A stretch of DNA of 63,227 nt from contig JAFAZW010000063.1 in assembly GCA_019239415.1 (NCBI GenBank), positions 1-63,227 on the forward strand. The letters are read 5' to 3'. A program made the position numbers and the translations under genes. The stretch's first letter is position 1. The number at the start of each line of letters is the position of its first letter. The notes beneath the pieces were generated by a model that did not search any database, had not been told where the DNA came from, and saw only the letters and a list, made by a program, of their open reading frames with translations. This DNA comes from Alphaproteobacteria bacterium. GTDB lineage: Bacteria; Pseudomonadota; Alphaproteobacteria; Sphingomonadales; Sphingomonadaceae. Below, piece after piece: positions 50,940 through 51,417 of this stretch.

Positions 50940-50994
50940 TTCCTCCCCATCGCGAGATGGGGAGGGGGACCAGGCGAAGCCTGGTGGAGGGGTC
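50940..50994 (-). repeat. Structured repeat, family C, left copy (3' of DUF559 gene)
   Basis: This 55-bp element reads on the plus strand as hairpin 1 (CCTCCCCAT, loop CGCGAG, ATGGGGAGG), hairpin 2 (ACCAGGC, loop GAA, GCCTGGT) and the tail GGAGGGGTC. It is the inverted partner of 51363-51417. It begins one base after the DUF559 stop codon. Confidence 0.9.
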
Positions 50995-50995
50995 G

Positions 50996-51361
50996 CTAAC
51001 GCCGCGCCGCGAGAAGAATCGCGCGAAGGACCGACTCCACATCCCGCAACACGTCCGCGGCGTCGAACCTCAGTACGTGCAGCCCCTTCGTCGCGAGCCA
51101 GCGATCCCTTGCCGCGTCCCGTTGCGGATTGGAGCCCATCGTGTGGCTGTCCCCATCGACTTCCACGACCATCCGCGCGGCGGGGCAGTAGAAGTCCACG
51201 GTGCATCGCTCGAACGGGTGCTGGAAGCGGAACTTGAGATCGCCGGGGCGGGTACGAAGGACCTGCCAGAGGAGCCCTTCCGGAAGGCTCGGCGTCCGCC
51301 GCAGGGCCCGTGCGCGGAGCACCGCGACGTTTCGCGCGGCTGCTCGATCGCTCCGCGACAT
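50996..51361 (-). CDS. DUF559 (Vsr-like) endonuclease-domain protein
   Basis: This 121-residue protein has a PD-(D/E)XK-type core related to very-short-patch-repair endonucleases. It has LWQVLRTRPGDLKFRFQHPF, the acidic pair in TVDFYCPAARMVVEVDGDSH, then RDRWLATKGLHVLRF. The N-terminus SRSDRAAARNVAVLRARALRR is basic. The ATG uses the tail of a repeat (GGAGGGGTCA) as Shine-Dalgarno, and the stop is one base from an inverted copy. The whole unit is only 478 bp. Nuclease activity is likely from motifs; the biological role is unknown. Confidence 0.88.
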   Translation of the reverse strand: MSRSDRAAARNVAVLRARALRRTPSLPEGLLWQVLRTRPGDLKFRFQHPFERCTVDFYCPAARMVVEVDGDSHTMGSNPQRDAARDRWLATKGLHVLRFDAADVLRDVESVLRAILLAARR

Positions 51362-51362
51362 T

Positions 51363-51417
51363 GACCCCTCCACCACCCTTCGGGTGGTCCCCCTCCCCGT
51401 CTCGCGACGGGGAGGAA
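51363..51417 (-). repeat. Structured repeat, family C, right copy (5' of DUF559 gene)
   Basis: On the minus strand this 55-bp element has hairpin 1 (CCTCCCCGT, loop CGCGAG, ACGGGGAGG), hairpin 2 (ACCACCC, loop GAA, GGGTGGT) and the tail GGAGGGGTC. The tail lies directly before the DUF559 ATG. It is 49/55 identical to the left copy, and all six differences keep base pairing. Confidence 0.9.

Follow-up and report, generated by a model that had tools for sequence, protein, structure and literature searches.

A DUF559 nuclease gene between inverted two-hairpin repeats: a probable REP-nuclease-REP unit in the Sphingomonadaceae

In the available text of the papers on REP/RAYT (TnpA-REP) systems (PMC2817692, PMC3116915, PMC8266576), the RAYTs are the one enzyme family connected with repetitive extragenic palindromic sequences (REPs) and REPINs. 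Here we analysed a 63,227-nucleotide stretch (the window) from the genome of an alphaproteobacterium of the Sphingomonadaceae (the source genome; GCA_019239415.1, contig JAFAZW010000063.1), in which a gene for a DUF559 protein stands between two inverted 55-bp hairpin repeats. This 478-bp stretch is probably the form in which a REP family carries its gene, a REP-nuclease-REP unit, with the DUF559 protein as the cognate enzyme of the two-hairpin repeat and the REPIN-like inverted pairs that hold no gene as its short non-autonomous relatives. As in REP/RAYT systems, the repeats are abundant in the genome and often form inverted doublets, many of them gene-less, while gene copies are few per genome; the repeat type is tied to the enzyme lineage, and changes in the stems are compensatory. 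The enzyme, on the other hand, is a PD-(D/E)XK/Vsr-like nuclease and not an HUH Y1 transposase (PF01797), and the repeats are longer, with one or two hairpins and a G-rich tail. The window copies have no GTAG/GTGG head, and the arms listed for the other repeat types start with C-rich stems. A further difference is that three related DUF559 units, two of them nearly identical, occur in a single genome (G045). Since the unit shares the arrangement of a REP/RAYT system but neither its enzyme nor its GTAG head, it would work like such a system without being a member of it. Of the marks of insertion sequences and miniature inverted-repeat transposable elements (terminal inverted repeats, multiple copies and target duplications), inverted ends and copies were seen in the DUF559 units, and no target duplication was resolved.

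Vsr repairs T:G mismatches. In Caulobacter, VsrA, which has a DUF559 domain, is tied to DNA damage and to a cytosine methylase in the accessible part of the report (PMC12907096). The E. coli protein YcjD (PRK09767), also with a DUF559 domain, is given as a predicted PD-(D/E)XK nuclease in the available text of an earlier paper (PMC1189080). The EDxHD homing endonuclease I-Bth0305I dimerises on a target of nearly 60 bp, according to the portion of a review at hand (PMC3943268); that the 55-bp repeat is of the same order is suggestive only. No paper linking DUF559 with REPs was found in the literature covered, which comprised sources outside subscription journals.

The unit of the window consists of the following features.

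50940..50994, plus strand: 3' REP copy on the downstream side of the gene, with hairpin 1 spanning 50942-50965, hairpin 2 spanning 50969-50985 and a gene-facing G-rich tail that ends at 50994
50996..51361, minus strand: DUF559 gene, 121 codons and stop (putative active site E28, D56, E67, D69, H73)
51363..51417, minus strand: 5' REP copy on the upstream side of the gene, with hairpin 1 spanning 51415-51392, hairpin 2 spanning 51388-51372 and the tail spanning 51371-51363
51329..51364, minus strand: 36 nt just inside the 5' REP tail, including the first 11 codons, which resemble the interior of gene-less REP copies of the source genome
50940..51417, no strand assigned: the whole REP-DUF559-REP unit, 478 bp, whose syntenic site beside a BLUF gene is empty in a genome of the same genus (G064)

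The gene runs from its ATG at 51361-51359 over 121 codons down to 50999 and ends with the stop codon at 50998-50996, one base separating it from a repeat at the start codon and one at the stop codon. This exact geometry had been claimed in a preliminary description made from the window's sequence alone, and the coordinates agree with an unbiased repeat search, which recovered an inverted pair with arms of 68 nt (50940-51007 and 51350-51417, 82% complementary). Each repeat is composed of hairpin 1 (CCTCCCC..GGGGAGG), hairpin 2 and the gene-facing tail. The two copies differ at six positions, which form three base pairs with pairing kept in all of them: 10/19 in hairpin 1 (A-T versus G-C), and 34/42 and 35/41 in hairpin 2 (GG/CC versus CC/GG). 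As the same description had stated, these differences are compensatory, all six falling in pairs predicted by single-stranded DNA folding; its statement that they prove selection on folding was too strong for two copies alone. Folded as single-stranded DNA, the two-hairpin form of the copies has energies of -18.9 and -19.8 kcal/mol, with z-scores of -5.35 and -4.28 relative to 200 dinucleotide shuffles. A 43-nt pattern taken from one copy, with up to three mismatches, matched once in the window, where 0.00 matches were expected by chance, while Rfam at its gathering thresholds found nothing in the window beyond two tRNAs.

The GGAGGGG motif in the tail of the 5' copy could act as the ribosome-binding site of the gene. 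Of 86 units examined, 77 have an in-frame start within 90 nt of the 5' repeat, and in 38 of these the first such start is no more than 15 nt away; the reading frame enters or passes the 3' repeat in 75 of the 86. Because the tail may double as a ribosome-binding site and the frame reaches the 3' repeat, gene and repeats appear to be interlocked. The C-terminal residues (RPPPSALRAATSP..) encoded at three loci (L062, L063 and L065) resemble a translated 3' repeat, so that the repeat would be partly coding there.

The window protein matches DUF559 (PF04480) with 89.5 bits (E 1.6e-25), and PF18741 is a second match, below its cut-off. Residues E28, D56, E67, D69 and H73 are invariant in alignment A1. 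In a structure prediction modelled from six sequences (mean pLDDT 90.7), the best solved match is 3hrl, NGO0050 of N. gonorrhoeae (Foldseek E 1.2e-5, TM 0.86 on target; profile E 3.9e-21), followed by the catalytic domain of I-Bth0305I, 3r3p (Foldseek E 2.6e-4, TM 0.61 on query; profile E 3.8e-5); Vsr structures come lower, at ranks 14-15 (E 0.15-0.24). By this model, the protein is a predicted Vsr/EDxHD-like PD-(D/E)XK endonuclease, fold-related to the homing endonuclease I-Bth0305I. It shares the nuclease fold with the latter by both sequence profile and predicted structure, whereas the DUF559 unit has no intron or intein, encodes a short nuclease domain only and is bounded by repeats that are amplified on their own as well. 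Searches of PADLOC, NCBIfam and PHROGs with the protein gave weak or sub-cut-off matches (the top PADLOC match, DpdF, had 24.1 bits), and therefore no defence or phage assignment is made. With 67.6 bits, it falls below the cut-off of the NCBIfam PRK09767 equivalog (218).

The same arrangement recurs throughout the family. Our sample comprised 59 genomes, the source genome included, of which 53 contain DUF559; 133 places, four of them merged with neighbours, gave 129 loci. We scored boxing as the best inverted match between the 250-bp stretches on either side of the DUF559 domain, with a threshold of 18, and took as controls windows of equal geometry elsewhere within the same loci. At this threshold 84/129 loci are boxed, and 86/129 at 17 or above, as compared to 2/5174 controls. 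In the source genome (3.49 Mb, 103 contigs), this search found three DUF559 genes, and inverted hairpin repeats box all of them, with a different repeat subfamily at each: the window type, AACCCCTCTCCC..GGGAGAGGGAGGGGCCC.. on contig C34 and AAGCCCCTCCCCTTCAGGGGAGGGGTTGGGGTGGGG on contig C82. Beyond the family, where the best-scoring loci were examined, 18/29 reached 18 at class level (17/28 outside the family; controls 0/1055) and 9/16 loci outside the class did so in a phylum search (controls 10/900); the arms of some of these outer loci read tail-outward. A protein tree was built from 122 DUF559 domains, with seven loci left out whose domains were shorter than 85 residues. Outside a clade located in the suf operon and the fusion proteins, 83 of the 95 remaining rows are boxed at 17 or above, while no suf-clade row (0/22) and no fusion row (0/5) is; the proposition that the repeats follow any DUF559 gene was dropped on these last counts. 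At three boxed loci (L061, L272 and L301), the inverted arms are nearly identical for about 100 bp, which suggests recent boxing or conversion.

The repeats fall into types A-F, separated by stem and tail, with 16 boxed rows left without an assigned type. On the tree with automatic type labels (67 rows), 12 changes of type are needed, as compared to 31-41 in 100 shuffles. A label-free Mantel test of protein identity against repeat similarity gave r 0.467 over 3317 pairs, same-genome pairs excluded; none of 2000 permutations reached this value, the highest being 0.104. Repeat type thus tracks the DUF559 protein tree. Plain co-inheritance of the gene with the sequences flanking it must account for part of this match, and such co-inheritance is what a unit predicts. 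In one genome (G050; L304, L312-L315 and L317), gene-less pairs combine a type-B end with a type-C-like end, and therefore B and C may be interchangeable.

The repeats are also present in many copies away from the gene. A strict pattern for the type-B tail matched the source genome 108 times, and its reversed-pattern control not once; among the 59 genomes, type B occurs in 30, type A in 20 and type E in 36, and neither type A nor type B is found in any of the six without DUF559. Many gene-less copies form tail-inward pairs, spaced 18-57 bp apart in the type-B pairs examined. Of the 19 inward type-E pairs of the source genome, counted by hand from 48 sites, 18 are spaced 28-68 bp, and the remaining one, with its arms 366 bp apart, encloses DUF559. 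We measured covariation in the copies of the examined loci, which are not independent (5-20 distinct stems per set), over the three outer variable pairs unless stated, with shuffled partners as the control. Hairpin 1 is paired at 95.8% in 24 source-genome copies, versus 61% when shuffled, and hairpin 2 at 92.2% in 30 copies, versus 55%. In the other genomes the values are 95.2% for hairpin 1 (21 copies) and 90.7% for hairpin 2 (90 copies); over two pairs, hairpin 2 has 90.0% in the source genome and 88.8% elsewhere. None of 2000 shuffles matched any of these figures.

The interior of the gene-less pairs was compared with the gene itself. The comparison used the 16 gene-less source-genome copies that have no partner closer than about 52 nt. 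Against their interiors, the 36-nt stretch of the window unit on the inner side of its 5' repeat ranked first among 336 positions, a match equalled by 0/500 shuffles and 0/466 random 36-mers. Some gene-less pairs are perhaps internally deleted forms of the unit.

A search of relatives for empty sites, which the preliminary description had proposed as a check, found them at three places. The window site in G064 holds neither gene nor repeat; the identity there is 67-73%, which is too low for the junction to be read. In Sphingomonas parapaucimobilis, a unit begins right after the pntA stop codon and finishes a few bases before the next pnt gene, and the matching site in three Sphingobium plasmids has a 14-nt overlap or gaps of 16-17 nt and no unit. 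Between sufB and sufC, 23 same-genus genomes were read out of 26 searched: four have DUF559, with at least two repeats matched in three of them and one in G064, and the other 19 have neither gene nor repeat by pattern search. As the sites without DUF559 are also without repeats, gene and repeats come and go together there. One genome, G045, has three related units in different places, two of them nearly identical and the third less closely related; at a fourth place there is only a single repeat with the opening bases of the gene.

The suf operon also holds a series of DUF559 genes that have lost their repeats. All 22 loci of the unboxed clade (rows among L122-L154) contain sufB, 21 of them sufC as well, and in 21 of the 22 members one or more of the five active-site positions (E, D, E, D, H) are lost. 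The larger branch that includes this clade is poorly resolved at its inner forks; it also has boxed genes with an intact active site, in the sufB-sufC loci L002 (source genome, G000 C82:45159-48467), L048, L082, L087, L091 and L097, while another sufB-sufC locus, L059, combines an intact active site with a boxing score of 9. S. parapaucimobilis has a boxed DUF559 gene between sufB and sufC (score 26). Over the 122 rows, 79/90 with an intact active site are boxed and 4/32 of those without. From these sequences, the suf-operon genes likely represent the domestication of a REP-linked nuclease, with repeats and active site lost in one lineage, and the series would be a natural archive of how such a gene is tamed.

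The RAYT-type Y1_Tnp domain (PF01797) was found in 13/59 family genomes, and G042 carries 79 type-B copies and no Y1_Tnp. Among the four RAYT loci tried, none had the same repeats (best inverted score 15.5, none C-rich). The source genome has one weak Y1_Tnp match (G000:C35:50507-50809, E 6.2e-8).

The preliminary description had likened the locus to a REP paired with its RAYT, the transposase being replaced by a Vsr-like nuclease, and this likeness has held: 84/129 loci are boxed against 2/5174 controls, the types follow the tree, gene-less pairs exist and the stems covary, to which are added the presence and absence of the unit between relatives and several related copies in one genome. The three observations that it had named as refuting it came out as follows. 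DUF559 genes without flanking copies exist, mainly in the suf clade, where the active site is mostly ruined, and among the fusions, but also in 12 of the 95 other rows; repeats also abound away from DUF559, chiefly in short pairs that hold no gene, which is likewise the case in REP/RAYT systems; and 89-96% of the tested stem pairs are kept in further copies. Given that the pairing recurs in relatives and that the repeats are multi-copy without the gene, DUF559 may be the engine of their spread. The protein would recognise its own repeat, probably via the folded or G-rich ends, with the repeat bound as a folded strand, a cruciform or a duplex, and would cut at or beside it; host repair or replication after the cut could then leave a copy of the unit or pair at a new place, and such a cut-and-copy cycle would explain the repeat numbers. 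Every step from recognition onward is one that we infer.

On this basis we lean, with some reserve, towards a broader proposal. DUF559 proteins would be a second, non-homologous class of REP-associated mobilising enzyme, Vsr/EDxHD-like, that makes and spreads the CCTCCCC, CCCTCTCCC and CCCCTCCC hairpin repeats of Alphaproteobacteria and other Proteobacteria; they would hence be the owner of REP families without a RAYT, and would have undergone at least one domestication, that of the suf operon, in which repeats and active site were lost. If so, a second unrelated enzyme has its own repeat families, and the REP life style arose more than once. The abundant repeats of RAYT-less genomes would be accounted for, a widespread domain of unknown function would gain a testable substrate, and a route of spread by a single nuclease, with copying done by host repair, would be suggested.

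Several observations weigh against the unit and its proposed enzyme. The action of the enzyme on its own repeats, by binding, cleavage or movement, is conjectural. No target duplication was resolved at the window/G064 or pnt sites, and the G045 copies have about 30 bp in common outside the repeats, and therefore the moved piece may exceed the repeat-to-repeat stretch. G049, in which no DUF559 was found, carries 54 type-E copies, which are either an orphan family or the sign of a gene missed in its 90-contig draft, and four genomes (G001, G011, G012 and G043) hold type-B copies without a type-B DUF559, by assigned labels. Twelve of the 95 rows that belong neither to the suf clade nor to the fusions are unboxed, several of them with one-sided or diverged repeats by eye, and only 3/9 further class loci added by the phylum search reach 18. 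The likeness of pair interiors to the gene start had been seen by eye prior to the test, and the end side is weak: the match ranks 8/336 at the end itself, is best at an offset of 4, and is equalled by 28/500 shuffles and 40/466 random 36-mers. The link between interiors and gene ends is clear in the source genome only, and on the start side only; in G009 the interior agrees over the first seven bases only, and in G050, G033 and G053 no gene-less interiors resembling gene ends were seen. Finally, the correlation between active site and boxing comes mostly from one clade, and for this reason an independent-pairs test was not significant.

The associations might also arise in other ways. A free-standing DUF559 homing endonuclease could have been copied by repair into gene-less pairs that served as its target and spread by other means. 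The nearest solved mobile relative is indeed the homing endonuclease I-Bth0305I, with its target of nearly 60 bp in the consulted part of the review (PMC3943268), and the gene sits between tails that elsewhere face each other across about 18-68 bp; simple insertion in the middle of a pair, however, predicts otherwise than what we found, namely an interior-like stretch that includes the first codons of the window gene, and the syntenic gene-less sites are without repeats too, gene and repeats coming and going together there. We therefore regard homing into REPINs as unlikely. That the repeats are insertion hot spots, with DUF559 brought by ordinary insertion sequences or boxed by coincidence, is hardly credible: REPs are known targets of insertion sequences according to the available text of PMC1525189, but the unit contains no transposase gene, control windows are boxed in only 2/5174 cases, and the sole gene-sized inward type-E pair of the source genome (366 bp, the other 18 being at 28-68 bp) is the one that holds DUF559.

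We likewise give little credence to a purely cellular role, in which the cell retains DUF559 as a repair nuclease of the very short patch (VSP) kind and uses the adjoining repeats for ribosome binding, termination or mRNA stabilisation, with no part for the enzyme in their spread. Such a role would fit the accessible account of Caulobacter VsrA, a DUF559 protein with a link to DNA damage and to a cytosine methylase (PMC12907096), and the start codons within 15 nt of the 5' repeat in 38/77 units. It does not account for the matching of the repeats at the two ends, the agreement of repeat type with protein lineage, the joint presence and absence of gene and repeats, or the frames that enter or pass the 3' repeat in 75/86 units. 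The REP-nuclease-REP unit, with DUF559 as the cognate enzyme, hence remains our preferred reading.

Four places of G045 (L110, L111, L118 and L257, the last read on its left side) have AGCGGACA-like and GTCCGC-like sequences in common outside the repeats; these are perhaps a second repeat family, either as the target or as part of the moved piece. Empty sites for these units were sought in five genomes of its genus, where the flanks match different contigs in G224 and G225. E. coli was tried and rejected as a source of strain-level empty sites: a sapF-ycjD-fabI query was at least 80% covered in 3362/5426 genomes, and two genomes without the full query have an efflux locus upstream of fabI, and therefore provide no clean empty site. 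By eye, a CCTCTCCCTGTGGGA..GAGAGAGGG repeat stands on both sides of an N. gonorrhoeae DUF559 gene (L292:1200-2073), in direct and not inverted orientation. In E. coli, repeats similar to those of the DUF559 units are seen, again by eye, only downstream of ycjD (L348:1267-1600), in the form of CCCTCACCCC/CCCTCTCCC hairpin repeats that are type A/D-like.
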